Shown: piece by piece, positions 1,516-23,448 of the stretch
Numbering within the stretch: the first letter of the stretch is position 1
Layout of the letters: each line of letters begins with the position of its first letter
Notes under the pieces: model-generated
The model's input: the letters and a program-made list of their open reading frames with translations, nothing else
What the model was told of the DNA's origin: nothing
Database searches by the model: none
Origin: Syntrophomonas sp. DTU018
GTDB lineage: Bacteria; Bacillota; Syntrophomonadia; Syntrophomonadales; Syntrophomonadaceae
NCBI GenBank assembly: GCA_001513155.1
Contig: LFSR01000052.1
Span: 1-32,892, forward strand
Length of the DNA stretch: 32,892 nt
Direction of reading: 5' to 3'
Program-made: the position numbers and the translations under genes

Positions 1516-3072
1516 GTGGCGCATACCGGCAGACATATGGCCCGGGCGGCATTCCTGCTCATGGTTACCGTTATCCTGTCCCGGGTTTTGGGCTATGGCA
1601 GGGAAGTAGCCCTGTACACCCTGTTCGGGCAAAACTACATTACCGATGCATACCGGGCTGCTTTTTCCGTTCCCGATTTAATATATATGCTGCTGGTAGG
1701 GGGGGCATTGAGCTCAGCGTTAATACCCGTGCTGTCTTCCTACCTGGCCAATGGGGAAGAGGAGGAAGGCTGGGAAGCCCTCAGTATTCTCACCAGCTGG
1801 GTTTTGCTGGTCATGCTTCTCCTGATAGCCCTGGCTTATTTTTATACCCGCCCGCTTATCATCCTGCTAACTCCCGGCCTGCCTGAGGAATATATTAACC
1901 TGGCGGCCGGCCTGACCCACATCATGCTGGTGCAAACTTTTTTCATGGCTTTAAATGGATTGGCTATGGGTGTTCTCAACAGCTGCCAGCATTTTGCCTC
2001 TCCTGCTCTGGGCAGCCTGGTTTATAATGCGGTTATAATAATAGTAGGTTGCCTGGGCTATAAACAATGGGGCATCGCTGCTTTTGCCTATGGAGTAGCC
2101 CTGGGGGCTGCTCTGAACCTGGCAGTGCAGATACCTGCCTTGAAACGGGTGGGGGTGCGTTATCGCTTCACCCTGCGCACCGATCATCCCGGCTTTGTAA
2201 AAATCCTGGGTTTAATGATACCGGTAATGGCCGGACTGGGGGTAGCCCAGCTTAATCTTTTTGTGACTCAGAATATCGCTTCCCACCTGGGCAGTGGAGT
2301 ATTAAGTTCTCTGAACCTGGCCCAGCGCATTATGAATCTGCCCGTAGGCATCTTTGCCGTATCCATAGGAACAGCCTTGTTCCCCACATTGGCCAGCTTG
2401 ATTGCCCAGGGAGAAATGGAAGGATTCCGGCGCTATACTTCACTGGGTATCAGGGCGACGCTCCTTTTGGGGGTGCCGGCTTCCCTGGGCTTGTTCGCCA
2501 TAGGCCAGCCCCTGGTCAGTCTTTTGTTTGAACAGGGAGAGTTTACCGGGGAAATGGTTCAGGCTACCACTCAGGCTCTCAATTACTACCTGTGGGGGCT
2601 GGCGGCCTACGCCTGCATGCAGGTGGCGGTACGGGGCTTTTATGCCCTGAAAGCTCCGGTCATTCCGGTGATTTCAGCGGTACTGGCAGTATTGGTCAAT
2701 GTAGTGCTGTCCATACAGTTAGGCTACCGGTGGGGGGCGCCGGGGCTGGCCCTGGCTTATTCCATAGCCGGGTGGCTTGACCTGTTGATCCTGCTGGCTG
2801 CTTTGCGCTGGAAAGTAGGCCCCATGGGGGGCAGCAAGATCGTCAGGGGATTTGTCATATCTGTGTTTGCCGGGGTCATTATGTTTTTTGCAGTTATGGG
2901 GGTAATGAACGGTTTAACTTCGGTTATAATGGTTACCAGCAAGGGTGCTCAGGCGCTGCTGATTGGGGCAGCGACTGCGGTGGGGGTGTTGGTATATGCC
3001 CCCATTATCATGAGATTTAGATTGGAGGAAACGAAAATCATAATGAACCTGCTGGGCAACCGCTGGGCTTAG
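1516..3072 (+). CDS. murJ: Lipid II flippase MurJ (MviN family)
   Basis: Probable MurJ, an integral membrane flippase of the MOP superfamily that moves lipid II across the cytoplasmic membrane for peptidoglycan synthesis. The product is about 518 residues, usual for the family, and is hydrophobic throughout with roughly 14 predicted membrane segments. The N-terminal region has the family pattern of LSRVLGYGREVALYTLFG followed by an AYRAAFSVPDL stretch. I chose GTG at 1516 because GGGAG sits 8 bases upstream. The in-frame TTG at 1501 and ATG at 1537 are alternatives without a good ribosome site. In a sporulating Firmicute the protein could instead be a paralogue with a special role, but the match to MurJ/MviN is clear. 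Confidence 0.85.
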   Translation: MAHTGRHMARAAFLLMVTVILSRVLGYGREVALYTLFGQNYITDAYRAAFSVPDLIYMLLVGGALSSALIPVLSSYLANGEEEEGWEALSILTSWVLLVMLLLIALAYFYTRPLIILLTPGLPEEYINLAAGLTHIMLVQTFFMALNGLAMGVLNSCQHFASPALGSLVYNAVIIIVGCLGYKQWGIAAFAYGVALGAALNLAVQIPALKRVGVRYRFTLRTDHPGFVKILGLMIPVMAGLGVAQLNLFVTQNIASHLGSGVLSSLNLAQRIMNLPVGIFAVSIGTALFPTLASLIAQGEMEGFRRYTSLGIRATLLLGVPASLGLFAIGQPLVSLLFEQGEFTGEMVQATTQALNYYLWGLAAYACMQVAVRGFYALKAPVIPVISAVLAVLVNVVLSIQLGYRWGAPGLALAYSIAGWLDLLILLAALRWKVGPMGGSKIVRGFVISVFAGVIMFFAVMGVMNGLTSVIMVTSKGAQALLIGAATAVGVLVYAPIIMRFRLEETKIIMNLLGNRWA

Positions 3073-3094
3073 AACCGGCAGGCCAGTTGAACAA

Positions 3095-3123
3095 TTGAAC
3101 CCCGGTGGGGAATTGGGTATAAT
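3095..3123 (+). promoter_or_regulatory. Sigma-A promoter of lepA
   Basis: TTGAAC at 3095-3100 and a perfect TATAAT at 3118-3123 are separated by exactly 17 bases. The start of transcription would be near 3130, about 35 bases before the lepA start codon. This gives lepA-hemW a promoter separate from murJ. Confidence 0.75.
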
Positions 3124-3165
3124 TTAGTCCATAATTTGTTAGAAAACCTCCTGGAGGTATCATAG

Positions 3166-4965
3166 TTGCAAAGTAACATACGCAATTTCAGCATTATCGC
3201 CCATATAGATCACGGCAAATCTACTCTGGCGGATCGCCTGCTGCAGTTTACCGGTGCTCTCAGTGAGCGGGAAATGCGGGAGCAGTTCCTGGACAAAATG
3301 GATTTGGAAAGGGAAAAGGGCATCACCATCAAGCTGCAGCCAGTCAGGCTCAACTACCGGGCAGCCGATGGTCAGGACTATATATTGAATCTCATCGATA
3401 CCCCCGGTCATGTGGATTTTTCCTATGAAGTTTCCCGCAGTTTGGCCTGCTGCGAAGGGGCATTGCTGGTGGTAGATGCCTCCCAGGGCATTGAGGCTCA
3501 GACTTTGGCCAATGTCTATATGGCTATGGATTTGAATCTGGAGATCGTAGGAGCGGTTAACAAAATAGATCTCCCCGGTGCTGATCCTGAAAAGGTCAAA
3601 CAGGAGCTGGAAGAGGTCCTGGGCCTGGACAAGAATGATATTGTGGCCATTTCCGCCAAACTAGGCATAGGCATTGAAGAAGTCCTGGAAGCCATTATCA
3701 AGTTCATACCTCCTCCCCGGGGAGACGAACAAGCCCCGTTGCAGGCCTTGATTTTTGACTCTTATTTTGATTCCTACAAGGGGGCTATCTGCTACTTCCG
3801 GGTGGTATCAGGACAAGTAAGGAAGGGAGACATCATTCGCATGATGTCTACCGGTAAGGAATATGAAGTTATTGAACTGGGAGTCTTTACTCCTTATATG
3901 ACAGAAGTGGAGGTATTAAAAGCCGGTGAAGTAGGTTACCTGGCGGCGGGCATAAAAAATGTCAGCGATACCAAGGTGGGGGATACCATAACTCTGGCTA
4001 ACCGGCCTGCGGCTGAACCACTTCCGGGCTATAAGGAAGTCAAGCCCATGGTATACTGCGGCTTGTATCCTTTGGAGAATAATGATTATGAAAGACTGCG
4101 GGATGCCCTGGACAAGCTGAAGCTCAACGACGCTTCCCTTTTCTATGAGCCGGAGACTTCGGAGGCTCTGGGATTTGGCTTTCGCTGCGGCTTTTTGGGG
4201 CTGCTGCATTTGGAAATAATCAAGGAACGCCTGGAGCGGGAATTTGACCTGAGCCTGCTGGCTACTGCTCCCGGTGTTATCTACCAGATTCTGCTTACCG
4301 ATGGCAGTATAATCTATGTATCTAACCCCACCCACTGGCCGGCTCCCCAGAAGATTGAGCAGGTTTTCGAACCGTTTGTTAAAGCCTCCATTATGGTGCC
4401 CAACGAATATGTGGGGCCAGTTATGGAGTTGTGTCAGGATAAACGGGGCATCTTTGTAAATATGGAATATCTCAGCACCCAGCGGGTTATGATCACTTAC
4501 AAGCTGCCTTTGGCTGAGATTCTCTACGACTTTTTTGATGCTCTTAAATCCAGGACCCGGGGTTATGCCTCCCTGGACTATGAATTCATCGGTTATGAGC
4601 CGGGTGATCTGGTAAAGCTGGATATTTTCCTGAACGGAGAAGTGGTGGACGCCTTAAGCATGATAGTCCACCGGGACAGAGCTTATTACCGGGCCCGTAA
4701 TGTTACGGAAAAACTGCGCCGTATAATACCCCGGCAGATGTACGAGGTGGTCATCCAGGCCGGAATCGGCAGCAAGATCATTGCCCGGGAGACCATTAAA
4801 GCTATGCGCAAGGACGTTTTGGCCAAGTGCTACGGAGGAGACGTCACCCGGAAGAAAAAACTCCTGGAAAAACAAAAGGAAGGCAAAAAGCGCATGAAAC
4901 AGATTGGCCGGGTGGAAGTGCCCAAAGATGCTTTTCTGACTGTTTTGAAGGTGGACAATGATTAA
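3166..4965 (+). CDS. lepA: Elongation factor 4 (LepA)
   Basis: LepA/EF4, a ribosome-associated GTPase that can back-translocate stalled ribosomes. At 599 residues it has the normal length. G motifs are visible: AHIDHGKST (G1, about residues 12-20), REKGITIK (G2 region), DTPGH (G3), NKID (G4) and SAK (G5). The C-terminal part has the LepA-specific domain ending with the lysine-rich stretch around [19 protein letters not shown]. The TTG start is supported by CTGGAGGT at 3151-3158. It has its own promoter and overlaps hemW by 8 bases, so lepA and hemW form an operon, the usual arrangement in Firmicutes. Confidence 0.97.
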
Positions 4966-6118
4966 CCAGCAGGACTATCGGGGGATATACATTCATATCC
5001 CCTTTTGCAAAGCCAAATGCAATTATTGCGACTTCTACTCAGTACCGCTGGCTGATGGGGACTGGCTGGAGAAGTATACCCGGGGGCTGGCTGCTGAAAT
5101 CCAGCAGCGAGCCTCTTCTTATGACGGCCAACCCATCCGTACGGTTTATTTCGGCGGCGGTACTCCCAGCCTGCTTACTCCGGCCCAGATCGAAACCATT
5201 CTGGCCAAATTGGACCAGGCCTTCGGGTTGCACAGCCCCATGGAGATTACCATGGAAGCCAATCCGGCAACTGTTGATCAAAAATATTTGCGGGACTGCC
5301 GACGGGCCGGGATCAACCGTTTGTCCCTGGGGGTGCAGAGCTTTATCGACCGGGAACTGCACCTGTTGGGAAGACTGCATTCTGCCCGGGACAGTGAGGA
5401 AGCGGTGCAGGCAGCTTTTGCAGCAGGTTTTGACAATGTTAATCTGGATTTAATTTATGGTATTCCCGGGCAAACTACAGGTGATTGGGAATATAACCTG
5501 CACCGGGCCATGGCCTTGGCCCCCCAGCACCTGTCTTTATACCTGCTCCAGCTGGAGCCCCACACTCCTCTGGGCAGGAAGGTTGAGGCCGGCCAGTTGT
5601 ACATGCTGGAAGATGAGGAGGAATACCAGCTTTACCGGACCAGCCAGGAGCTGTTGGCCCAGAAGAATTACCGGCAGTATGAGATTTCCAACTTTGCCCT
5701 GCCGGGCAAGGAATGCCATCACAACCTGCTCTACTGGGACAGCCGGGAGTATATCGGTCTGGGAGCCGGGGCGGTTTCCTTTATTAACCGGGTCCGCTTC
5801 CGCAATACTGCCAGGCTGGAGCAGTACCTGCAAGCTGCGGGAGATTACCCGCTGAATTTCTGGCAGGGGGAGATTCTGGAGGAAATGGATGAGGAGCAGC
5901 GCTGGGTGGATGCAGTAATTTTGGGTCTTCGTACGGCCCGGGGGATAAACCTGAAAGATTTTTACCGCCGGTTCGGAGTAGATCTGCACCAGAAATATGC
6001 TGAGGTAATCCAGGAGATGAAGACAGGAGGTTTTATGATTATCAGGGATGGATATTTGCGCTTGACGCCATCTGCCTATTTCATATCCAATCAGATCTTA
6101 GCCCGATTTATCCAGTGA
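4958..6118 (+). CDS. hemW: Radical SAM heme chaperone HemW
   Basis: HemW, the HemN-like radical SAM protein now regarded as a heme chaperone rather than a coproporphyrinogen oxidase. The radical SAM cluster motif CxxxCxxC is at Cys17, Cys21 and Cys24, and it lacks the extra Cys two residues later that marks true HemN. A GGGTPS motif (about residues 67-72) follows, as expected for the SAM-binding region. Length of 386 residues is typical. It overlaps lepA by 8 bases and ends 92 bases before hrcA. Older annotations would call this oxygen-independent coproporphyrinogen III oxidase. Confidence 0.92.
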
Positions 6119-6127
6119 TCCCATGCC

Positions 6128-6156
6128 TTGACAAAGATAACAGCAGGTGATATTTT
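6128..6156 (+). promoter_or_regulatory. Sigma-A promoter of the hrcA-dnaK operon
   Basis: A consensus TTGACA (6128-6133) and TATTTT (6151-6156) are separated by 17 bases. The predicted transcription start, near 6163, lies just before the CIRCE operator, so HrcA bound there would block transcription. Confidence 0.8.
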
Positions 6157-6168
6157 TTAATAAAATGG

Positions 6169-6195
6169 TTAGCACTCGACAGCCAAGAGTGCTAA
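6169..6195 (+). promoter_or_regulatory. CIRCE operator (HrcA binding site)
   Basis: A perfect inverted repeat TTAGCACTC, 9-base spacer, GAGTGCTAA. This is the canonical CIRCE element bound by HrcA. It lies between the promoter and the hrcA ATG at 6211, so the operon should be autoregulated and heat-induced. Confidence 0.97.
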
Positions 6196-7224: not shown

Positions 7225-7251
7225 GATTCATAAATCGTTACGGAGGAATAT

Positions 7252-8811
7252 ATGGCGGATAAACCGGCAAGGGCCAACCAGCAAGGTGAAGACAGGTTTC
7301 AAACATTATTAAACAATGCCAATGCAGCCCGGGTCATCTCCCAAGCTGTGGAAGGGACTCTGGGACCACGAGGTCTGGATGTAATGATGGTGGACCGCTT
7401 TGGTGGGGTAGTGATCACCAATGACGGGGTAACCATCTTAAATCTTATGGAAGTAGGGCACCCGGCGGCCCAAATGATTATCAATACGGCTCGTTCTCAG
7501 CAAAAGGAAGTAGGAGATGGAACTACCACCACTACTATACTGGCTGGCGCTATGATTGCTGAGGGATGTGCGCAAATAATCAAGGGGGTTCCGGTAACCA
7601 GAGTAGTGGAAGGAATTCGCCTGGGAGTAGAAGCGTGCGCCCGATGGATTGATGAAATCGCTCGCCCCATTAATGATCTGGATGATCCTGAACTGGCTGC
7701 CATTGCCGCAATAGCCGGACGCGGAGAACAGGAACTGGCCCGGCAAATAGTTGAAGGTGCCAAGATACTGGGAAAAGATATGCTGCTGAATCCTGAGTAT
7801 AAATATGCTGATGCGGTTTATGCCCGGGAGGCAGCTGATAATAGAGTTTTCCGCGGGGTTATTTTGAACAAACAGCCGGTTAACCGGGAAATGCCCCGGG
7901 AAATAAAAGATGCCAGTATTCTGGTCATTGATGATGCCCTGGCACCGGAGGAGATCAATACAGAAGCCTTGAAAACGGAATCCGGTTTTCAGTATTATCG
8001 CCAGTCCCGGGAAGACTATAAAAACAATCTGGTGCGTCTGGGGCAGATGGGAGTAAATCTGGTCCTGGTGGACCGCAGCATTGACGATATAGCCGAAGAA
8101 ATATTAACTGATGCCAATATAATGGTACTGCAGAGAGTATCGTCCCGGGAGCTGAACCGCTTGTGCCGCCATACCGGGGCTCGCAAAGTTAAACGCAGTG
8201 CCCTGAACCGTGAGCCCGACAGTCTGAGAGCTTACTTAGGCAGGGCGGATCATGTTCTGGTAGACGAAAAGCTGGAAGGGACCATGGTTTTCAATGGTAA
8301 AGGGGAAAACCAGGTTACCGTCTTGGTGGGTGCTGCCACCAGCGAAGTAGTTGATGAACGGGAACGAATGGCCCGGGATGCAGCTTCCGCAGTGCAGGCG
8401 GCCTTGAAAGGCGGAGTGGTTCCGGGAGGCGGTGCCATAGAAGTGTGGCTGTCTTCCCGCCTGGAAGACCTGGCTCGCCAGCAGGAAGGCCTGGTATCCT
8501 ATGGCATTTTGTGTGTCAAAGAAGCTTTAACCAGGATATTTTTATGTATGGCTGCCAATGCTGGTTTTAACCCCTTGGAGAAATTGGGAGACATCACGGC
8601 TTTGCAGCGTAAAAAAGGAGTAAACAGCATATCCTTTGATGTAAACACCGGTCAGCCGGCAGATATGCTGGAGGCCAAAGTGCTGGATCCAGCTCTGGTT
8701 AAGCGCCATGCTATTCAGGCGGCCGGTGAGGTGGCTGCTGCCATTTTGCGAATTGAAACCGTTATTAAGATGAAAGATGAAAGTACCGACCATCCCTTGG
8801 TGGTCGAATAG
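7252..8811 (+). CDS. Group III (archaeal-like) chaperonin
   Basis: A 519-residue chaperonin that resembles archaeal thermosome/TCP-1 subunits more than GroEL. Visible group II-type motifs are TLGPRGLDVMMVD (about 36-48), ITNDGVTIL (55-63), the nucleotide-binding GDGTTTT (88-94), VVPGGGAIE (389-397) and the C-terminal ILRIETVIKMK. There is no GGM-rich tail as in GroEL, and no groES-sized gene is adjacent. Bacterial chaperonins of this type, named group III after the Carboxydothermus hydrogenoformans protein, sit in the hsp70 operon of a limited set of Firmicutes, exactly as here between hrcA and grpE. They form double rings with a built-in lid and need no GroES. ATG is preceded by ACGGAGGAA. 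Expression should be under CIRCE control. Confidence 0.9.
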   Translation: MADKPARANQQGEDRFQTLLNNANAARVISQAVEGTLGPRGLDVMMVDRFGGVVITNDGVTILNLMEVGHPAAQMIINTARSQQKEVGDGTTTTTILAGAMIAEGCAQIIKGVPVTRVVEGIRLGVEACARWIDEIARPINDLDDPELAAIAAIAGRGEQELARQIVEGAKILGKDMLLNPEYKYADAVYAREAADNRVFRGVILNKQPVNREMPREIKDASILVIDDALAPEEINTEALKTESGFQYYRQSREDYKNNLVRLGQMGVNLVLVDRSIDDIAEEILTDANIMVLQRVSSRELNRLCRHTGARKVKRSALNREPDSLRAYLGRADHVLVDEKLEGTMVFNGKGENQVTVLVGAATSEVVDERERMARDAASAVQAALKGGVVPGGGAIEVWLSSRLEDLARQQEGLVSYGILCVKEALTRIFLCMAANAGFNPLEKLGDITALQRKKGVNSISFDVNTGQPADMLEAKVLDPALVKRHAIQAAGEVAAAILRIETVIKMKDESTDHPLVVE

Positions 8812-8822
8812 AGGTGACAATA

Positions 8823-9446
8823 GTGGAAGAAAAGGATTTTGTTCCCCGGCCTGAGGCTGAATCCCAAGAGCCGGCAGAGGGAACCAATGCAGCTAATGAT
8901 GCTAATGAAGCCAATGAAACCAGCCAGACCGGGAAAACTGAGAATGCAGAACCTGAGGCTGCCGGCGAAGAAGCGGCCCCGGATGTAAATGCATTACAGG
9001 AAGAAATCAATCGCCTGAAAGAGCAGGTTGCTGCCTATTATGATCAGTACCTGCGCTCTTTGGCTGAAGCAGATAATATACGCAAGCGGGCTCAGCGGGA
9101 GAGAGAAGAATACATGAAGTTTGCCGCTGTGCCGCTTATTAAGAAATTGCTGCCGGTGATGGACGACCTGGAAAGAGCTTTAACCATGTCCGAATCCAGC
9201 CGGGATTTTGACGCCCTGTATAAAGGGCTGCAGATGATCAGCAAGCGTATGCAGGAAATTATTGAGAGTGAAGGTGTGCAAGTTATTGAAGCCCTGGGCA
9301 AACCCTTTGATCCCCAGTACCACCAGCCCCTGATGGTGGAATCCAGCCCAGACCATCCGGAGAACACCGTTATTGAGGAACTGCAGAAGGGATATATGAT
9401 ACATGGCAGGGTAATTCGACCCAGTCTGGTCAAAGTCAGCAACTGA
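8823..9446 (+). CDS. grpE: Nucleotide exchange factor GrpE
   Basis: GrpE, the nucleotide exchange factor of DnaK. The product has about 207 residues: an acidic, Ala/Glu-rich N-terminal tail (to about residue 55), a long coiled coil around INRLKEQVAAYYDQYLR, and the C-terminal beta domain ending IRPSLVKVS, all typical. I chose GTG at 8823 because GAGGTGA lies 5 bases upstream. The GTG at 8814 is in frame but overlaps that ribosome site. The gene starts 11 bases after the chaperonin stop, so the two are co-transcribed. Confidence 0.95.
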   Translation: MEEKDFVPRPEAESQEPAEGTNAANDANEANETSQTGKTENAEPEAAGEEAAPDVNALQEEINRLKEQVAAYYDQYLRSLAEADNIRKRAQREREEYMKFAAVPLIKKLLPVMDDLERALTMSESSRDFDALYKGLQMISKRMQEIIESEGVQVIEALGKPFDPQYHQPLMVESSPDHPENTVIEELQKGYMIHGRVIRPSLVKVSN

Positions 9447-9486: not shown

Positions 9487-11280
9487 ATGAGTAAAGTGGT
9501 CGGCATCGACTTGGGAACGACTAACTCCTGTATTGCAGTGATGGAGGGGAAGGATGTAACAGTTATCACCAACGCTGAAGGTGAAAGGATCACTCCCTCA
9601 GCAGTGGGTTTCTCTAAATCCGGAGAAAGGTTGGTAGGAAGAATTGCCAAGCGGCAGGCCATTACCAATCCGGAACGTACGGTTTTATCTATTAAAAGGC
9701 ACATGGGTACCGACTATAAAGTGGAAATAGATGGCAAGAAATATACCCCCCAGGAAATCTCGGCCATGATCCTGCAAAAGCTGAAAACCGATGCTGAGGC
9801 TTACTTAGGGGAACCGATAACCCAGGCGGTGATAACCGTTCCGGCCTACTTCACTGATTCCCAACGGCAGGCCACCAAAGATGCCGGTAAAATTGCCGGT
9901 TTGGAAGTGCTGCGCATAATCAACGAACCTACCGCAGCGGCTCTGGCTTACGGACTTGATAAGGAGGATAATCAGACCATCCTGGTATTTGACCTGGGCG
10001 GCGGTACCTTTGATGTTTCCATACTGGAAATAGGGGATGGAGTATTTGAGGTTAAAGCTACCAGCGGTAATAATCGCCTGGGCGGAGATGATTTTGATGA
10101 CCGCATTATTAACTGGCTGGTAGAGGAATTCAAAAAGGAAAACGGTATCGATCTGAGAAACGACAAAATGGCCATGCATCGACTCAAAGAAGCTGCTGAG
10201 AAGGCCAAACTTGAATTATCCTCGGTGCTGACCACTGATATAAATATACCCTACATTACTGCTACCCAGGAAGGTCCGCTGCATTTGGAACGTACTTTGA
10301 CCCGGGCCAAGTTCAACGAAATGACCGCTGACCTGGTGGAAAAGACCATGGGACCCACCCGGCAGGCCTTAAAAGATGCCGGCTTAAAGCCTTCTGATAT
10401 CGATAAGGTTATCCTGGTGGGCGGCTCAACCCGTATTCCGGCGGTCCAGGATGCTATCAAGGAATATCTGGGCAAGGAACCCTTCAAAGGTATAAATCCC
10501 GATGAAGTAGTTGCCGTAGGGGCGGCTATTCAAGCTGCGGTTTTGGCCGGAGAAGTCAAGGACGTGGTATTGCTGGACGTAACCCCCTTGTCTTTGGGGA
10601 TTGAAACCCTGGGAGGTGTATTTACCCGCATTATTGAACGCAATACTACGATTCCTACTTCCAAGAGCCAGGTTTTTACCACCGCTGCTGACAATCAGAC
10701 TTCTGTGGATATTCACGTTCTGCAGGGCGAGCGCAAGATGGCCAGTGACAACGTGACCCTGGGACGTTTCCAACTGACCGGTATTCCGCCTGCTCCCCGC
10801 GGGGTACCCCAGATAGAGGTTAAGTTTGATATCGATGTCAACGGTATTGTGCATGTTTCCGCCAAGGATTTGGCTACCAACAAGGAGCAAACCATTACCA
10901 TCACCTCTTCATCAGGTTTAAGCGAAGAAGAAATTGAACGCATGATTCGCGATGCCGAAAAGTACGCCGAAGAGGATGAAAAGAAACTTAAACTGATCGA
11001 AGCCCGCAATACTGCCGACAGCATGATTTACCAGGCGGATAAGACTCTGAAGGAATTCGCGGACAAGATCAGCGAGGACGAGAAGCAGAAGATTGAGCAG
11101 GCCAAACAGGATCTGCAGGAGGCGGTCAAAGGGGAAGATGTCAGCCTGATTACTGCCAAAACCCAGGCTTTGACCGAAGCCATTTATGCGGTGTCAGCCA
11201 AGATGTATGAGCAGGCTGGTCCCAAAGATGCTAAGGATGATGTAGTGGATGCCGATTACACTGTTCCTGAGGATGATTAA
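9487..11280 (+). CDS. dnaK: Chaperone DnaK (Hsp70)
   Basis: DnaK, the ATP-dependent Hsp70 chaperone. The 597-residue protein shows all three Hsp70 signatures: GIDLGTTNS at the N-terminus, [12 protein letters not shown] in the ATPase domain, and [14 protein letters not shown]. The substrate-binding domain and helical lid follow. The C-terminus is acidic (ends DYTVPEDD) rather than the EEVD of eukaryotic proteins. ATG is preceded by GGAGGTG. A strong hairpin lies between this gene and dnaJ and may adjust the ratio of the two proteins. Confidence 0.98.
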
Positions 11281-11389: not shown

Positions 11390-12541
11390 ATGTCTAAGCG
11401 GGATCTTTATGAGATATTAGGTGTTTCACGGCAAGCCAGTGCTGACGAAATAAAAAAGGCTTACCGTCAACTGGCGCGCAAATACCACCCTGACGTAAAT
11501 CGCGACGACCCTAATGCCAGCGAAAAATTCAAAGAAATATCCGAGGCTTACGAAATACTCAGCGATCCCCAGAAAAGAGCTGCCTACGACCGCTTTGGCC
11601 ATGATGCCTTTGATCCCACCCGAGGTGCCGGCGGTTTTGGGGGCGGATTCGGAGGTGGCTTCGGCGGATTTGATTTCGACGATCTGGGCACCGGATTTGG
11701 TGATCTGTTTGATATGATCTTTGGTACGGGAACCAGCCGGGCGCGCCAGCGTAACCGGCCCCAGCGCGGTGCAGATCGGGAGATCCGTATGGAAATAAGT
11801 TTTGAAGATGCTTTGTTCGGGGTGGAGAAGGATATCCAGATATCCCGGGTGGAAAAATGTGAGCACTGCCAGGGTACCGGAGCACAGCCTGGATCAGAGG
11901 TTACTACCTGTCCCACCTGCAAAGGCAGCGGCCAGGTCCGCACTGCTCAATCCACACCTTTTGGCCGGTTCGAAACGATACGCACCTGCAGCCGCTGTAA
12001 TGGGGAAGGCAAAGTTATTGAGAAGCCCTGCAGCAAGTGCCGTGGTACAGGACAGGTGAAAAAGGCTCGCACTATTAGCGTTAAAATTCCACCGGGAGTT
12101 GATACCGGATCCCGGATTCGCCTGCAGGGCGAGGGCGAACAGGGCTTAAGAGGAGGGCCACCGGGAGATCTGTATATTACCCTGATTGTTCGGGAACACC
12201 CCCGGTTCAAACGGGATGGCACTACCTTGATAACCCAGGTAACCATCGACTTTGTGCAGGCTGCTTTAGGAGATACGGTGAAGATAGACTTGCCGGGAGG
12301 GGCCAGTCACGAATTGCATATTCCGGAAGGAACTCAGCCCGGAGAGGTTTTTGTGGTGCGAGGCAAAGGAGCACCCAGTCTGCACAGCCAGCGACAGGGT
12401 GATCTGAAGGTGATCGTACAGGTCAGCATCCCCAAAAAACTCACTAAACGTCAGAAAGAATTGCTCAGCCGCTTCCATGAAGAAGAAGAGAACTCCTCCA
12501 GCAAGGGTTTATTCGGTAAATTCAGGGACGCTATGGGCTAG
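11390..12541 (+). CDS. dnaJ: Chaperone DnaJ (Hsp40)
   Basis: Type I DnaJ, the J-domain co-chaperone of DnaK. The J domain (about residues 1-70) has HPD at 33-35. It is followed by a Gly/Phe-rich linker (about 76-105), four CxxCxGxG zinc repeats ([32 protein letters not shown]) and the C-terminal substrate-binding domain. Length of 383 is standard. ATG is preceded by CTGGAGGGTGG. It is separated from dnaK by 109 bases that contain a hairpin. Confidence 0.97.
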
Positions 12542-12555
12542 AAAGGTGTAACAGC

Positions 12556-13479
12556 ATGAAGTGGAAGGAAATTTCAGTTCTCACCTCCGGTATCTGCCTG
12601 GAACCTGTGGCGGGTATTTTTCATCAGCTGGGCACTGGCGGTGTTGTAATAGAAGATCCCCAGGCAGCCCGCCAGTATGTAAGCCGGGATCAATGGAACC
12701 CGGAAAGCATATCCGGCGATGTGCTGGGTCATGACTTTATAGTTGTCAAAGCGTATTTTCCCGATGAACGACAGGTTATGGAAGAGCTGAGCAACCGGCT
12801 CAAAGAGGTAGAGAGACAGTTTAATTCCCGGTGCAAGGTATATGTTAATGAGGTAAATGATGAGGAATGGGAACAGTCCTGGAAGAAATACTACCATACC
12901 TTTAAAGTAGGGCAGCGTTTGGTAATAAAGCCCTCCTGGGAAGCCTATCATCCTGCAGCCGGAGAAGTGGTAATTGATATTGATCCGGGTATGGCCTTTG
13001 GTACAGGAATTCATGCTTCCACCCGGTTCTGCCTGATCTTTATTGAGCAGTACCTTAAGGGAGGAGAAACGGTAGTAGATGCCGGGTGCGGTTCGGGCAT
13101 CCTGTCTATTGCTGCTGCCAAGCTGGGAGCGGCTAAAGTATACGCCATGGATATTGACGATGTGGCGGTACGCATTGCCCGGGAAAATGTTAAACTGAAC
13201 GGCCTGGAAGAGATTATTCAAGTGGAATCAGGAGATATTGTCTCAGCTTTGAGCAATTTTTCCCCCCAGATCATATTGGCCAACATAACTGCCGAGGTAG
13301 TGGCCCAGTTGGTTCCTGTTGCCGCTCAAGTTCTTCCCCCGGGAGGCTGGTTTTTCGGATCGGGAATTGTGGACAGCCGCTGGCCGGGTGTTAAAAAGCG
13401 ATTGGACAACCATGGATTTGAGATAGAGCAGCTGCTCACTGATGTGGACTGGATCGGAGTAGCTGCCCGCAAATTATAA
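12556..13479 (+). CDS. prmA: Ribosomal protein L11 methyltransferase
   Basis: PrmA, a SAM-dependent methyltransferase that trimethylates ribosomal protein L11. The 307-residue protein has the family stretch DPGMAFGTGIHASTRFCL, then SAM motif I VVDAGCGSGILSIAAAKLGA, and LANITAEVV for the later substrate/SAM motif. It lies 14 bases after dnaJ. The order dnaJ-prmA-rsmE-mtaB is common in Firmicutes and supports one long transcript from the CIRCE promoter. Confidence 0.94.
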   Translation: MKWKEISVLTSGICLEPVAGIFHQLGTGGVVIEDPQAARQYVSRDQWNPESISGDVLGHDFIVVKAYFPDERQVMEELSNRLKEVERQFNSRCKVYVNEVNDEEWEQSWKKYYHTFKVGQRLVIKPSWEAYHPAAGEVVIDIDPGMAFGTGIHASTRFCLIFIEQYLKGGETVVDAGCGSGILSIAAAKLGAAKVYAMDIDDVAVRIARENVKLNGLEEIIQVESGDIVSALSNFSPQIILANITAEVVAQLVPVAAQVLPPGGWFFGSGIVDSRWPGVKKRLDNHGFEIEQLLTDVDWIGVAARKL

Positions 13480-15993: not shown

Positions 15994-17172
15994 ATGTTCC
16001 GTGATACCATTTCGCCGGCAGATAAAGAATTAGTGTTTTTTACCCGGGATTTGGTTGCCCGGCGAATTGCTCCTCAGGCAATGACCTATGATACCCATGG
16101 GAACGAATTTTTCGATAGTTCGGCGCTGGAAGTGCTGGCTGAACACAATCTGCTGGCTCCCAACCTGCCGCCTGAGTATGGCGGGAGAGGATTGAGCAAT
16201 CTGGTTACCGCTATGATTTTGGAAGAAATTGCCGCAGGCTGTGCAGGGGTGGCCATTGCTGTGGCAGCCAATCTCCATGCTATCAGCCCCCTGATGGTGG
16301 CAGGCACCCAGGAACAGCGAGACCGGTACCTGCCCTTGATGGCCAACGGGAAAACCGGTCTGGGAGCCATAGCCATGGTGGATACGGGAGTTAATCTGGA
16401 TTTCCTGCTGCAGACGGAAAGAGTATCCATACGCGGTTCTTCCATAAAAGGGGAAGTTAATGAGGCTAATCAAACTGTCGTCAACGGCAGCAAGGATTAT
16501 GTCATGAATGCCGCTGCCGCCAAGTTCATGACCACCATGGTAGAATACAAAAGCAGCGGCAGCAGTGAGCCCGGCGGCTTGCAGATAATAGTGCTGCCCA
16601 TGGACACTCCGGGACTTTCCCTGGGGAATACCCGCCACAAACTGGGCCTGCGTTATTGCAGCACCGCGGAAGTCCACTTCAACGACCTTATAGCTGAACC
16701 CCATCATATGATCGGCACACCTGCCCAGGGGCTGGAGATATTCAAAGAATGTCTTTACCGGAATGTGCCTTTTGTTGGCGCAGTGTGTGTAGGAGTAGCC
16801 CGGGCAGCCTACCAGCATGCCCTGGAAATATCCAAGGAAAGAATGATTTCAGAACATCCGGTATTCGAGGAGAGTGCCGTAAGTCACAGCCTTGTAAATA
16901 TGGCCAGTCAGCTAAATGCTGCTCGCCTCAGTGTTCACCAGGCCTGCTGGAATATTGACCAGGGACTCGACTACACCCTCACTTCGCCCCAGGCTAAGAT
17001 AATAGCCAGTGAGGCGGCTCAGAACATTACCTGGCGTGCCATGGAGATTGTAGGGGGACAGGCTTATGTCAGCGGCAATAAAGCCGAAAAATACCTGCGT
17101 GACGCCAAAATGCTGTCTATTGTGGATGGCAGTGAGCAGTTTCATAGGTGCTTGCTGGCTTCTCAATTGTAG
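15994..17172 (+). CDS. Divergent acyl-CoA dehydrogenase-like protein 1
   Basis: A 392-residue protein with the acyl-CoA dehydrogenase fold: N-terminal helical domain with NLPPEYGGRGLS, middle beta domain (HKLGLRYCSTAEVHF), and a C-terminal FAD domain (IVGGQAYVSGNKAEKYLRDA). By eye the usual catalytic Glu of the IYEGT motif is Asp (SIVDGSEQ), and the alternative Glu site used by long-chain and isovaleryl enzymes seems to be Asn. The first family signature, normally TEPGAGSD, is degraded to VDTGVNLD. It may use Asp as base, form a heteromer with the next protein, or have another function. It is preceded by AAGGAGGAC and sits at the end of the heat-shock transcript. Confidence 0.85.
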   Translation: MFRDTISPADKELVFFTRDLVARRIAPQAMTYDTHGNEFFDSSALEVLAEHNLLAPNLPPEYGGRGLSNLVTAMILEEIAAGCAGVAIAVAANLHAISPLMVAGTQEQRDRYLPLMANGKTGLGAIAMVDTGVNLDFLLQTERVSIRGSSIKGEVNEANQTVVNGSKDYVMNAAAAKFMTTMVEYKSSGSSEPGGLQIIVLPMDTPGLSLGNTRHKLGLRYCSTAEVHFNDLIAEPHHMIGTPAQGLEIFKECLYRNVPFVGAVCVGVARAAYQHALEISKERMISEHPVFEESAVSHSLVNMASQLNAARLSVHQACWNIDQGLDYTLTSPQAKIIASEAAQNITWRAMEIVGGQAYVSGNKAEKYLRDAKMLSIVDGSEQFHRCLLASQL

Positions 17173-17193
17173 ACTCAAGGAAGGAGACGTGCT

Positions 17194-18366
17194 ATGGCTT
17201 TGTCATTATTAAGTGATAGTGACCGGGAACTGGTAATGGAAGTGCGCGAACTTGCTTCCACTCAAATCGCTCAGCGGGGTTATTATCTGGATATGATAGG
17301 AGACAAAGAACCGGACTGGGTTATTCCCGCTCTTTTGGCGGAACGCAATCTTTTGGCACCAACTATTCCCAAAAGCTATGGCGGCAGGGGATTATCCATG
17401 ATGGCTACTGCTGCTGTAGTGGAAGAGCTGGCTGCTGGCTGTGCCGGGGCTGCGGCTATTGTAGTCGCCAACAACTATGCTTTAACCCCTTTGCTGGTAG
17501 CGGGCAGCAAATCCTTACAGGAAAAATTTCTTCCCTTAATGACTCAGAAGGAACCCCACTTGGCCAGTCCCGTGATCAACGACGTTGCCAGCGAAACAGA
17601 CCTGAAACAAAAGGGACCCATCCCAGAAGATATAACCCGCATTTCTACCACCATACATTTGGAAGGCAACCAGGCAGTTATCAATGGCAGCAAGGACTAT
17701 ATCCTGAATGGAGCCATGGCTGATTTCATGGTACTGCTGGCCCGGGACAGCGATTCACGTCGTAAATCACGGCTGCAGTTTGTGGTGGTCCCAGCTAATA
17801 CTCCGGGGATAACTGTTGTAGAACCGGTGATGAAAATCGGCATGCGATCGGCTCATACAGTAAGACTGCAGTTCAAAAATGTTGCCGTACCGGAAGAATA
17901 TCGCCTGGGCCGGCCGGGAGGAGGATATTTCCTGCTGCTGCAGACCTTTGACCGTAATCTGGCTTTAGTCGGCGCTATCGGTGTGGGAATTGCCCGGGCG
18001 GCTTATGAGCTGGTGCGCAATCTGGCCAGAGAAAAGGATCTCCTGGGCAAGAATACCACCGCCAATGCTTATTTTGCTACCGCTCTGGCGGATATGAGCG
18101 CCCACATAGATGCTGCTCGGCTGTCAGTAGCCAGGGCTGCCTACCATATTGACCAGGAAGGCAATTATTCCCGCACTTCTACTATGGCCAAGCTGTATGC
18201 TACCCAAGTTGCCCAGCAGGTTACCTCCCAGGCGGTTGACCTGGTAGGACGCATGGGATTTCTGGTGGGACATCCAGCGGAAAAATTCCTGCGGGACGCC
18301 CAGATGCTGTCCATAATTGCCGGCAGTGACTACCTGCACCGCCAGACAGTAGCTGATCAGCTCTGA
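17194..18366 (+). CDS. Divergent acyl-CoA dehydrogenase-like protein 2
   Basis: A 390-residue paralogue of the preceding gene with the same fold (TIPKSYGGRGLS, MKIGMRSAHTVRLQF, GRMGFLVGHPAEKFLRDA). It departs further from active enzymes: the position of the catalytic Glu appears to be Ala (SIIAGSDY), and the TEPGAGSD signature is not recognisable. An alpha2-beta2 complex with the upstream paralogue is plausible, since such paired dehydrogenases with one inactive subunit are known in actinobacterial steroid catabolism. GGAGACG precedes the ATG, 21 bases after the partner's stop. A shared terminator region follows. Confidence 0.85.
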   Translation: MALSLLSDSDRELVMEVRELASTQIAQRGYYLDMIGDKEPDWVIPALLAERNLLAPTIPKSYGGRGLSMMATAAVVEELAAGCAGAAAIVVANNYALTPLLVAGSKSLQEKFLPLMTQKEPHLASPVINDVASETDLKQKGPIPEDITRISTTIHLEGNQAVINGSKDYILNGAMADFMVLLARDSDSRRKSRLQFVVVPANTPGITVVEPVMKIGMRSAHTVRLQFKNVAVPEEYRLGRPGGGYFLLLQTFDRNLALVGAIGVGIARAAYELVRNLAREKDLLGKNTTANAYFATALADMSAHIDAARLSVARAAYHIDQEGNYSRTSTMAKLYATQVAQQVTSQAVDLVGRMGFLVGHPAEKFLRDAQMLSIIAGSDYLHRQTVADQL

Positions 18367-18426
18367 TGGTGGACAGGGCTTGTTTATATTTGGAAAGATA
18401 AGCTGGGGGTTTCATAACCTGGCGTC

Positions 18427-18457
18427 AAAAAAAAGCGGAGCTTTGGCAGGCTCCGCT
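18427..18457 (-). terminator. Intrinsic terminator, mainly for the - strand operon
   Basis: An 8-bp stem, AGCGGAGC (18434-18441) with GCTCCGCT (18450-18457), has an A8 tract on its left side. Read on the - strand this is a GC stem followed by T8, a classic terminator for transcripts running left from the thiolase gene. On the + strand it is followed by GCATTATTT and may weakly stop the dehydrogenase transcript. Confidence 0.8.
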
Positions 18458-18571
18458 GCATTATTTGTAGAGTATTACCGGGCACGCGTATAACTATGTA
18501 TGCAGGTCTATTTATTTTCGCATGTTAACTGTTATGTTTATTAAGGAACTTTGACGATTTACCCAAAAAAG

Positions 18572-18654
18572 AAAGGGGGTGGCAGGGAGCTGCAAACAAT
18601 TCTCCCTGCCGAAATAAGGGGGGCGCTAGGGAGTTGCAGCCAATTCTCCCTGCC
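18572..18654. repeat. Tandem imperfect hairpin repeat (2 copies)
   Basis: Two direct copies of a palindromic unit, 44 bases apart. Copy 1 has a perfect 9-bp stem, GGCAGGGAG (18581-18589) with CTCCCTGCC (18602-18610). Copy 2 (18628-18654) matches it over 27 bases with 3 differences and keeps a shorter AGGGAG/CTCCCT stem. Both follow a G-run. On the - strand copy 1 is followed by a C- and T-rich run reaching TTTTTT at 18565-18570, so it may help terminate the thiolase transcript. The rest of the 330-base gap (18367-18697) holds the terminator at 18427-18457 and no gene. Confidence 0.7.
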
Positions 18655-18697
18655 ATAAACCTATAATATTTAATCACCAGTGGTGTTGCCCTGACTT

Positions 18698-19888
18698 TTA
18701 TTTGATATTTTCAACGATCATAGCAACTCCCGGGCCGCCGCTGGCACAGAGGGATGCACAGAGATATCTGCCGCCCCTGCGCTTCAATTCATTGATACCG
18801 GTCACCAACAATCGGGCTCCCGTTGCGCCCACCGGGTGACCGAGGGATATTCCTGAGCCTACTGCATTAACAATATCCAGGCTTAACTTAAGTTCCCGGT
18901 TTACTCCCAGGAATTGAGCAGCAAAGGCTTCATTGATCTCCCAATAGTCAATGTCTTTCTGCTCTAAACCAGCAAATTTTAAGGCCCGTCTTACGGCGGG
19001 AACTACTCCCATACCCATGATTTTTGGATCCACGCCTCCGGTAGCGGAAGATACCACCCGAGCTAGGGGCTTAATCCCCAATTCCTTGGCTTTTTCCGCA
19101 GACATCATAATTAAGGCCGAAGCGGCATCATTCAAGCTGGAAGCATTGGCAGCAGTTACTGTTCCGCCTTTTTTGAATACCGGCGGCAGTTTTGAGAACA
19201 GTTCCATACTGGCATCTTCTCTCGGGTGTTCATCAGTGTCAAAAATTATAGTGCCTTTTTTGGATTTTATTTCAATTGGCACTATTTCATCTTTGAACAA
19301 ACCTTCTTTAATGGCCTTACAGGCTCTCTTGTTACTCATTACGGCCAGTTCATCCTGCTCTTCCCGGGTTATACCATACATTTCTGCAATATTTTCTGCG
19401 GTTACCCCCATGTGATACCCGTTGAAGGGACAAATCAGACCGCCCAGCATTAAGCCATCCTGAATTACTTCCCCGTCACCCAGGCGATAGCCCTTTCTGG
19501 CTCTCTGCAGGATATAAGGGGTATTGGTCTGGCTCTCCACTCCCACTACAGCACCGATTTCCACTTTTCCCAGCATTATTTCCTGGGCACATATTTCGGC
19601 GGCCCGCAAGGAAGAAGGGCATTGCTGGTGAACGGTAACTGCGGCAGAATCAAAGGGCATACCGCACCCCAGGCCTATCAGCCGGGCGCTATTCCCCGGA
19701 CAGGAGGCCTGTCCCACATGACCGCATACAATGGACTCCACCATTTCTCCTTTAATACCTGCTTTTTCCAGGGCACCATTTAGGGCAAAAATACCTAGAT
19801 CAACTGGGCTGAACTGTTCCAGTGCGCCCATAAAGTTGCCAATGGCTGTACGAGCACCGCTTACGATTACAACTTCTTTAGTCTGCAT
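18698..19888 (-). CDS. Acetyl-CoA acetyltransferase (thiolase)
   Basis: A 396-residue thiolase that would cleave acetoacetyl-CoA with CoA to two acetyl-CoA, or run the reverse condensation. The active-site set is complete: nucleophile Cys90 in HQQCPSSLRA, His351 in LGHPVGATG, and Cys381 in CASGGPG; NEAFAAQF is also present. The Cys90 context is unusual, with Pro after the Cys and His in place of the common Asn before it. ATG is preceded by AAAGGGG. It is the last gene of the abfD-hbd-crt-thl operon and catalyses the last step. Specificity for C4 substrate is inferred from the neighbours. Confidence 0.93.
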   Translation of the reverse strand: MQTKEVVIVSGARTAIGNFMGALEQFSPVDLGIFALNGALEKAGIKGEMVESIVCGHVGQASCPGNSARLIGLGCGMPFDSAAVTVHQQCPSSLRAAEICAQEIMLGKVEIGAVVGVESQTNTPYILQRARKGYRLGDGEVIQDGLMLGGLICPFNGYHMGVTAENIAEMYGITREEQDELAVMSNKRACKAIKEGLFKDEIVPIEIKSKKGTIIFDTDEHPREDASMELFSKLPPVFKKGGTVTAANASSLNDAASALIMMSAEKAKELGIKPLARVVSSATGGVDPKIMGMGVVPAVRRALKFAGLEQKDIDYWEINEAFAAQFLGVNRELKLSLDIVNAVGSGISLGHPVGATGARLLVTGINELKRRGGRYLCASLCASGGPGVAMIVENIK

Positions 19889-19906
19889 TAACCCTTTCCC
19901 CTTTCG

Positions 19907-20671
19907 TTACTTACCTTTAAAAACTGCTTTGCGTTTTTCCAAAAAAGCCTGCATGCCTTCTTTCTGATCTTCAGTGGCAAAACAACTGGCCCAAGCCAAA
20001 GCTTCAAATTCAATACCTTGCTTCTGCTCAGCTTCCTGGGCATGATTTATACATTGTTTGGCTAGTTTTAAAGCTATTGGAGATTTTTCGGCAAACTTGC
20101 CGGCCAGTTTAAGAGCTTCCGCCAAGGGATCTTCTACCACCATATCTACTAAACCGTATTCCTTGGCTTTATCAATATTAATAATTTGCCCAGAGAAAAT
20201 CAGCTGTTTGGCTCGAGATGGACCGATCAGGCGGGGCAGGCGCTGGGTTCCGCCCGCGCCGGGGAATATGCCCAGATTTATTTCCGGAAAACCCAATTTG
20301 GCATCGGGAGCAGCTATCCTGATATCGCAAGCCAAAGCCAGTTCCAAGCCGCCTCCTAAGGCGAAGCCATGTATAGCAGCAATCACCGGTTTGGGAAATT
20401 CCTCTATTTTGTTAAATGTCCGCCAGAAGGAAAAATCTTTAGCTTCTTCCGGACTCAGGTTAACCATGTTGGATATGTCTGCTCCTGCGGCAAAGTTCTT
20501 TACCCCTGTTATAACCACTGATTTGATATTGGGATCGGCAGCCATTTTATCAAAAGCTTTATCCAATTCCATTACCATGGCTTTATTTAAGGCATTCAGA
20601 GCTTTAGGTCTGTCCAAGTAGACTATCGCTGTTTCCTCTTGGATTTTTATCGAAATGAATTCATAATACAT
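19907..20671 (-). CDS. crt: Enoyl-CoA hydratase (crotonase)
   Basis: A 254-residue crotonase that would hydrate crotonyl-CoA to 3-hydroxybutyryl-CoA. Both catalytic glutamates are present: Glu110 in GGGLELALACD and Glu130 in FPEINLGIFPGAGGTQRL. The oxyanion-hole region FAAGADISNM is also intact. GGAGGT precedes the ATG. It lies between the thiolase and 3-hydroxyacyl-CoA dehydrogenase genes with gaps of 18 and 32 bases, so it belongs to the same transcript. The second crotonase-like gene at 26529 is clearly a different type. Confidence 0.93.
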   Translation of the reverse strand: MYYEFISIKIQEETAIVYLDRPKALNALNKAMVMELDKAFDKMAADPNIKSVVITGVKNFAAGADISNMVNLSPEEAKDFSFWRTFNKIEEFPKPVIAAIHGFALGGGLELALACDIRIAAPDAKLGFPEINLGIFPGAGGTQRLPRLIGPSRAKQLIFSGQIINIDKAKEYGLVDMVVEDPLAEALKLAGKFAEKSPIALKLAKQCINHAQEAEQKQGIEFEALAWASCFATEDQKEGMQAFLEKRKAVFKGK

Positions 20672-20703
20672 AATTGGACCTCCGTTGAATCACGTCTCAT
20701 AAT

Positions 20704-21567
20704 CTACTTGGATATATACTCATAGAAACCACTGCCGGTTTTGCGTCCATATTTACCAAGAGCATATCTCTCCACCAGTGCCGGGCTGGGTTTGTCCTTG
20801 GGATCTCCAGTTTCCCGGAACCTTTCCATTAATACGTTATATTCCAGGTCAATTCCGGTAAGATCCAGCAACTCCAGGGGGCCCATGGGATGACCTAATC
20901 CGTTGCGCACAGCATTGTCAATATCTTCGATGGAAGCAATACCCTGATCCAACAGATAACAGGCTTCCTTGGTAATAGCGCTGAAAATTCGATTACATAC
21001 AAAGCCATAGATCTCTTTATTGACCCGGGTAGGTACTTTTCCTAAAGCACGGCTTACTTCCAATACTGTCTGCACGGTTTCTTCCGAGGTATGGGGGCCT
21101 TTTACCACTTCAATCAGTTTCATTACCAGGGCAGGATTAAACCAATGCATGTTCAATACTTTGTCTGGGCGGTTGGTGGCATCGGCAATTTTGGAGCTAA
21201 CTATATAAGAACTGTTGGTGGCCAAAATGGTATGGGGCGGACAAATCCTATCCAACTGGGTAAAAATCTGCCGCTTTATTTCCAGTATTTCAATGGCTGC
21301 TTCTATTACCAGATCAGCATTCTTGGCAGCCGTTTCCAAACTGCCGGCAAAGTTAAGGCGGCTTTTTACAGCAGCAACCTCTTCTGCCGACATTTTGCCT
21401 TTTTCTACGCGGCCATTTAGCCATTTGTCCGCAAAATCCTGGGCTTTCTGTAATGCCTCAGCCTTAACGTCAGTACAATAAACGGTAAACCCTGACACTG
21501 CTGCCTGTAGAGCTATCTGATGTCCCATAGTTCCTGCTCCGACAACACATATAGTTTTAACGTCCAT
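20704..21567 (-). CDS. hbd: 3-hydroxybutyryl-CoA dehydrogenase
   Basis: A 287-residue NAD(P)-dependent dehydrogenase that oxidises 3-hydroxybutyryl-CoA to acetoacetyl-CoA. The Rossmann motif VVGAGTMGHQIA begins at residue 8, and the catalytic His lies in MHWFNPALVMKLIE, a slight change from the common HFFNP. The C-terminal domain has GHPMGPLELLDLTGID. I chose ATG at 21567 because GGGAGGTT lies just upstream; an in-frame start 150 bases further up (21717) would add an unrelated tail and run into abfD. Length is normal. In a syntroph the NADH made here would be re-oxidised by hydrogen or formate production. Confidence 0.94.
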   Translation of the reverse strand: MDVKTICVVGAGTMGHQIALQAAVSGFTVYCTDVKAEALQKAQDFADKWLNGRVEKGKMSAEEVAAVKSRLNFAGSLETAAKNADLVIEAAIEILEIKRQIFTQLDRICPPHTILATNSSYIVSSKIADATNRPDKVLNMHWFNPALVMKLIEVVKGPHTSEETVQTVLEVSRALGKVPTRVNKEIYGFVCNRIFSAITKEACYLLDQGIASIEDIDNAVRNGLGHPMGPLELLDLTGIDLEYNVLMERFRETGDPKDKPSPALVERYALGKYGRKTGSGFYEYISK

Positions 21568-21649
21568 TATTTTAACCTCCCATACTAAAATGATGTTACT
21601 TGTCGAAATCATTCCCTCTATCGCATCTTTGACATGCTCAGCGGGATAA

Positions 21650-23119: not shown

Positions 23120-23220
23120 TCACTGCACCTCTCTTCAATGTTTTTGCAACCATGAGGCTTCTGGAAAATTAATCCTTGTCACCCCAGAGCATGCATTGGA
23201 TAACTGCCGGCAATTATTAT

Positions 23221-23236
23221 TGCAATAATCATGCCA
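23221..23236 (-). promoter_or_regulatory. Sigma-54 (-24/-12) promoter of the abfD operon
   Basis: On the - strand the sequence reads TGGCATG, four bases, TTGCA. GG (-24, 23235-23234) and GC (-12, 23223-23222) are exactly 10 bases apart, as sigma-54 promoters require. Transcription would start near 23211, leaving a leader of about 90 bases. The divergent gene codes for a sigma-54 activator. Confidence 0.8.
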
Positions 23237-23281
23237 TTTGCAGACTGCCCATAGTACCTCGACGTCAGACTGCAGTAAATC

Positions 23282-23326
23282 CAGGGCTAAATCAACTGAA
23301 CAGGCCTGTCGTGCTGACTTGCCCTG
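23282..23326. promoter_or_regulatory. Nested dyad, possible activator site upstream of abfD
   Basis: A 10-bp palindrome, ACAGGCCTGT (23300-23309), sits at the centre of a wider inverted pair CAGGGC (23282-23287) and GCCCTG (23321-23326). The centre is about 70 bases upstream of the -24 element, a normal distance for an enhancer-type site. Function is inferred. The remainder of the 329-base gap 23120-23448 holds the sigma-54 promoter and a possible regulator promoter, and no gene. Confidence 0.4.
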
Positions 23327-23359
23327 CTAAATCTGACCCAAACCATGCTGGAATAAAAC

Positions 23360-23389
23360 TTGCAATTTAGAAAGTAGTTAGTATATATT
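23360..23389 (+). promoter_or_regulatory. Possible sigma-A promoter of the regulator
   Basis: TTGCAA (23360-23365) and TATATT (23384-23389) are 18 bases apart. This is a moderate match and would start transcription about 55 bases before the regulator ATG. Confidence 0.4.
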
Positions 23390-23448
23390 GACGGCAAAGA
23401 AAGTTGACGAATGGTGCCGAAAAAGCGTTTATAAGGGAGGATGGAAAT

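Follow-up and report, generated by a model that had tools for sequence, protein, structure and literature searches.

Archaeal-like chaperonins of bacteria were first described by Techtmann and Robb in 2010 (as cited in PMC5220055, PMC5635000 and PMC5904260), and as far as that description is relayed by the citing papers the gene reported here shows no essential difference from it, being located in a dnaK operon of a host that also possesses GroEL-GroES. Group III chaperonin genes are situated in the DnaK operon with one exception (PMC5635000), and type I and type III chaperonin genes are both regulated by HrcA (PMC5904260). Both the kind of protein and its operon position are already known from work described in 2010-2017 (PMC5635000, PMC5220055, PMC5904260). 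The nearest natural relative in the PDB is Ch-CPN, the group III chaperonin of Carboxydothermus hydrogenoformans (5x9u and 5x9v; PMC5635000), which matches our protein with 461 bits (5x9u) and 45% identity over 503 residues. The two proteins have in common the catalytic Asp pair, the equivalent of Arg155, the absence of the nucleotide-sensing insert, a built-in lid and a site in the DnaK operon; they differ in that the lid residue Phe253 of Ch-CPN corresponds to Tyr256 here, and in that the host of Ch-CPN is thermophilic. Archaeal group II thermosomes (1q3r, 3kfb) share the fold and the built-in lid (TM 0.80), but have six extra nucleotide-sensing residues, Lys in place of Arg, another lid length and only approximately 30% identity. 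The group I GroEL-GroES of the same genome belongs to the same superfamily and is likewise under CIRCE control; unlike the protein under study, this GroEL has no lid, is paired with groES and falls into a separate clade. What the present analysis adds is quantitative: the gene, here designated cpn3, is common (30% of the sampled species of the phylum) and easily lost, and the HrcA circuit stays in place when it is lost.

The cpn3 operon and the CIRCE sites of the genome

The window, i.e. the whole stretch of 32,892 nucleotides of Syntrophomonas sp. DTU018 that was analysed, contains at positions 7252-8811 of the forward strand an uninterrupted chaperonin reading frame of 519 codons with an ATG start and no internal stop, preceded by a ribosome-binding site (GGAGG, 7242-7246). 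An initial annotation had placed this gene between hrcA and grpE, inside a CIRCE-controlled Hsp70 operon, and both statements were borne out by the features of the region, which are as follows:

4958..6118, + strand: hemW, the left neighbour of the operon, kept in most relatives (TIGR00539, 285 bits; gene order)
6128..6156, + strand: candidate sigmaA-like promoter of the hrcA operon, TTGACA-N17-TATTTT (consensus scan, 10/12 matches)
6169..6195, + strand: CIRCE operator, the HrcA-binding inverted repeat, perfect consensus, TTAGCACTC-N9-GAGTGCTAA
6211..7224, + strand: hrcA, heat-inducible transcription repressor, 337 aa (TIGR00331, 323 bits, cut-off 197; PF01628)
7252..8811, + strand: cpn3, group III chaperonin, 519 aa (PF00118, 5x9u match, tree, alignment, AlphaFold and Foldseek)
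8814..9446, + strand: grpE, nucleotide exchange factor (NF010738, 169 bits, cut-off 137)
9487..11280, + strand: dnaK, Hsp70 (TIGR02350, 953 bits)
11390..12541, + strand: dnaJ, Hsp40 (TIGR02349, 465 bits)
12556..13479, + strand: prmA, ribosomal protein L11 methyltransferase, the habitual 3′ neighbour of the operon (TIGR00406, 217 bits)

Upstream of the operon lepA and hemW were found, while cpn3 is followed by grpE, dnaK, dnaJ and prmA; it is separated from hrcA by 27 nt and from grpE by just 2 nt. The putative promoter, proposed from its consensus match, is placed exactly 5′ of CIRCE, an element for which the chance expectation in the window is 0.02 at up to three mismatches. In another part of the window, positions 15994-25533 represent a beta-oxidation cluster specifying two acyl-CoA dehydrogenases, a thiolase, an enoyl-CoA hydratase, a 3-hydroxyacyl-CoA dehydrogenase, an HpaB-family protein and a sigma-54 activator, a gene content that fits a syntrophic degrader of fatty acids.

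Exactly three CIRCE sites were detected genome-wide at up to three mismatches, positioned before the cpn3 operon, before groES-groEL and before hsp20. A standard GroEL is thus encoded apart from the group III gene of the DnaK operon: on contig C15 (locus L002) it follows groES, and 69 nt ahead of groES stands a perfect CIRCE of its own, which answers the check for a CIRCE-bearing groEL/groES elsewhere in the genome that the annotation had proposed. From these three sites the HrcA regulon is predicted to consist of hrcA-cpn3-grpE-dnaK-dnaJ, groES-groEL and hsp20. The last of these, on contig C14 (L003, about 1501-2005), is preceded at its promoter by a perfect CIRCE (G000:C14:25437-25463) and is therefore probably a member of the regulon.

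Identity of the cpn3 product

The 519-residue protein was recognized by Pfam PF00118 (Cpn60_TCP1) with 383 bits (E 2e-114), and the NCBIfam thermosome models returned 306-322 bits as compared to 107-170 bits for the GroEL models (39 for the Chlamydia variant); all of these thermosome and GroEL scores lie under the curated cut-offs of their models, as is expected for a chaperonin belonging to neither group. Three thermosome-type motifs had been claimed for the protein, and TLGPRGLDVMMVD, GDGTTTTT and ILRIETVI were all found in the translation. A phylogeny against groups I, II and III had been named as the analysis able to overturn a group III assignment, and a maximum-likelihood tree of 50 chaperonins was constructed together with a quick tree. 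Group I was split from groups II and III with supports of 100/100, the clades of groups II and III received 100/99 and 87/93, respectively (95 for group III in the quick tree), and the maximum-likelihood tree placed the cpn3 protein outside group I and within the group III clade, beside copies from the same genus, the same family and a wider range of bacteria.

Residue-level comparison was based on an alignment of 91 group III and 12 group II rows. R157 is equivalent to Arg155 of Ch-CPN, at which position the gamma-phosphate is contacted (PMC5635000); every one of the 91 group III rows has Arg there, and every one of the 12 group II rows has Lys. In the cpn3 protein 23 residues make up the nucleotide-sensing stretch (as in 90/91 group III rows) versus 29-32 in group II, the loop being approximately six residues shorter than its group II counterpart. 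The lid segment, 45 residues in length as compared to 49-50 in group II, aligns with the lid of Ch-CPN, and the built-in lid lies around residues 226-266. The catalytic Asp pair is conserved as D58 and D376 (Asp56 and Asp373 in Ch-CPN; the functional roles of this pair and of Arg155 are taken from PMC5635000), and the GDGTT motif is present. Four hydrophobic lid residues, L237, F243, Y246 and F253, have been called strictly conserved (PMC5635000); at the lid tip of the cpn3 protein the first three are retained as L240, F246 and Y249, and F253 is replaced by Y256, a Tyr that occurs in 17 of the 91 group III rows, namely our protein and 16 others. This replacement is a point counted against the favoured reading. 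An AlphaFold model built from ten homologues (pLDDT 86) was best matched in Foldseek by 5x9v (TM 0.88) and 5x9u (TM 0.87), with group II structures at approximately 0.80. The group III identity proposed in the initial annotation is supported by the tree, by the lid segment aligned to Ch-CPN and by the top structural matches, and judged by sequence and predicted structure the product of 7252-8811 is a group III chaperonin. It would be expected to form an ATP-driven, presumably hexadecameric ring that is closed by its own lid and consequently does not need GroES.

Two other identities were weighed against this assignment. The common superfamily and the 107-170 bits obtained with the GroEL models could suggest a divergent group I GroEL in need of GroES; that reading is almost certainly wrong, as the protein does not group with GroEL, which is set apart at 100/100, scores about twofold higher with thermosome models, and contains a lid segment aligned to those of Ch-CPN and group II where GroEL has none, and as it is a separate GroEL that adjoins groES in this genome, with no groES neighbouring cpn3. 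Hardly more probable is that the thermosome-like sequence reflects an archaeal group II thermosome recently imported into the lineage. The protein falls outside the archaeal thermosomes and clusters with bacterial copies from its own genus and family at the same locus, its short nucleotide-sensing loop is devoid of the six-residue group II insert and carries Arg for the group II Lys, and close mobile relatives were not encountered: PLSDB contained no plasmid relative above 60% identity (the best listed being 32%), and in IMG/VR there were just two relatives, one a 30% match and the other a short fragment. A recent import is refuted by these findings, which leave room for an ancient transfer at the base of group III.

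Group III chaperonins are practically absent from IMG/VR, unlike group II thermosome-like proteins, which were found on 73 viral contigs (L181-L253) with 35-70% identity to archaeal ones. It was also observed that chain N of PDB entry 9rwq, a resurrected ancestor, outscores 5x9u against the cpn3 protein (585 bits); the entry is labelled 'Ancestral Group II Chaperonin (ACII)', yet its sequence is without the group II nucleotide-sensing insert, and it is probably the ACIII reconstruction, the group III ancestor of PMC12696368.

Distribution and gene order of group III loci

Of 398 genomes sampled evenly from the phylum, 119 carry group III chaperonins, and further copies were identified in Armatimonadota bins; the view that they are confined to a limited set of Firmicutes was correct as to their occurrence there, but understated their spread. 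Among 80 named genome loci, 77 have a co-directional hrcA upstream (within 400 nt in 75), and the next chaperone gene after cpn3 was grpE in 70 and dnaJ in 5, indicating that the operon position is general.

A number of loci depart from this order. In L051, L055, L073, L075 and L077, with the same order also in L041, from Bacillota that belong partly to the Fermentithermobacillaceae, the CIRCE operon is reduced to hrcA-cpn3-dnaJ without grpE-dnaK, and in five of these six genomes dnaK-grpE was located elsewhere (dnaK loci L163-L167). No CIRCE was present in the stretch examined at L163-L167, nor was a HAIR operator detected upstream of the separated dnaK genes at up to three mismatches; in three of the genomes dnaK is preceded by a gene encoding a MerR regulator that resembles HspR (68-84 bits, under the model cut-off of 105). 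Where grpE-dnaK had left the operon, the group III gene remained with hrcA and not with dnaK. At L060 (5001-6500), from an uncultured bacterium, the group III gene groups with the Armatimonadota copies and has none of hrcA, grpE, dnaK and dnaJ within 5 kb. The Armatimonadota-type loci L084, L085, L093, L096 and L107 have grpE downstream and hrcA upstream in 4/5, i.e. in all with enough upstream sequence, and as none of these five loci contains a match to the CIRCE core the operator there may be a different one.

Apparent gene fusions were also inspected. In L014 (G008:C213) hrcA and cpn3 appear joined in one frame of 865 aa, but the junction is a run of approximately 100 N, an assembly gap rather than an HrcA-chaperonin fusion, and represents a pitfall in annotated databases. 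The long frames of G046 (703 aa) and G119 (831 aa) are no fusions either; they are due to upstream open sequence that is out of frame, in GC-rich DNA.

Loss of cpn3 and the probable chaperonin partner of HrcA

Of 32 genomes in the family to which the window belongs, 22 have an intact cpn3 and 8 have none; in the other 2 (G042, G445) the gene is broken. When presence and absence of cpn3 were mapped onto an HrcA tree of 23 genomes, seven changes were required, of which at least four are forced by well-supported branches. Where cpn3 is missing hrcA directly adjoins grpE, and in L147 (G021, about 2592-3330) a decayed cpn3 remnant with frameshifts and a missing middle occupies the slot between the two genes, so that in-place losses explain at least part of the pattern. 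In relatives without intact cpn3, CIRCE was found before hrcA in all 14 loci for which the region is complete, and before groES in 16/16 (one of them the carrier of the remnant); among cpn3 carriers it precedes groES in 13/14. As relatives often lose cpn3 and keep both GroEL and the heat-shock switch, cpn3 is probably a supplementary folding machine that can be dispensed with, and not what runs the switch.

The initial annotation had asked which chaperonin controls HrcA, on the premise that HrcA normally needs GroEL. The GroE effect behind this premise is established in Campylobacter jejuni, where HrcA is bound by GroE and binds DNA more strongly in its presence, and Bacillus subtilis and Chlamydia trachomatis are cited for the same effect (PMC8533110); as HrcA is itself able to sense heat (PMC8533110), however, the premise does not hold absolutely. 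The question is less open than it appeared, given that GroEL is nearly always co-present and that cpn3 has repeatedly disappeared from relatives that retain HrcA and CIRCE. GroEL was found in 117 of the 119 phylum genomes carrying group III; of the other two, G263 has groES at a contig end, where groEL would come next (an assembly break), and G399 is a fragmented draft. Altogether no GroEL gene was found in five draft genomes with group III, namely G263 with its contig break and G399, G415, G425 and G448, in which neither groES nor groEL was found. The co-presence of GroEL, together with cpn3 loss in which hrcA and CIRCE are retained, points to GroEL as the likelier partner of HrcA and to cpn3 as a dispensable member of its regulon.

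We therefore favour, at a probability of roughly 0.86, the reading that cpn3 encodes an ordinary group III chaperonin repressed by HrcA at CIRCE, which would be an output of the heat-shock switch, with GroEL acting as the partner of HrcA. GroEL would keep HrcA folded and active, and HrcA on CIRCE would repress the cpn3 operon, groESL and hsp20. Upon heat shock, unfolded and denatured clients would titrate GroEL away and HrcA would release CIRCE, and since cpn3 is predicted to be repressed at CIRCE along with hrcA, grpE, dnaK and dnaJ, it would be induced together with the Hsp70 system. Derepression would thereby supply more DnaK-DnaJ-GrpE, GroEL-GroES, Hsp20 and self-lidded group III ring, the latter adding folding capacity alongside the normal GroEL-GroES and serving as output of the switch, not as its sensor.

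Counted against GroEL as the HrcA partner is the presence of hrcA upstream in 77/80 loci, a link that is tighter than that with dnaK and that could hint at more than co-regulation. The five draft genomes with group III in which no GroEL gene was found also count against it. It may be that HrcA is matured by the group III chaperonin, acting as a second or even the main chaperonin for it, and senses the load on both. The position of hrcA directly upstream in those named loci, the persistence of this link in lineages where grpE-dnaK left the operon and the predicted co-expression of cpn3 from the CIRCE promoter would all agree with such a role, which is nonetheless unlikely in view of the repeated loss of cpn3 with hrcA, CIRCE and groESL intact and of the almost constant presence of GroEL. 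Moreover, the correlation of pairwise distances was lower for hrcA-cpn3 (0.74) than for hrcA-lepA (0.86), and in this test, which is crude as the distances are saturated, no special co-evolution was seen. The presence/absence data do leave room for a secondary effect of the group III chaperonin on HrcA in carriers, where it might bind HrcA and add a second folding-load signal beside that of GroEL, as an accessory layer that can be lost without losing the basic switch; this we regard as slightly less probable still than a maturation role.

Two chaperonin types under one repressor provide a natural setting in which to study how a chaperonin with its own lid shares the work with GroEL. The losses at species level, where members of one genus occur with and without cpn3 and the operon and CIRCE are alike, represent matched pairs that allow direct tests of the share of cpn3 in heat tolerance and of its presumed dispensability for HrcA function. 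In one complete genome of the same family (G042; L176, G042:C1:1799359-1800910) cpn3 is disrupted at a short tract of TA repeats near codon 347, which represents either decay or repeat-length switching, and in G139, from the same genus as G042, the gene is intact.
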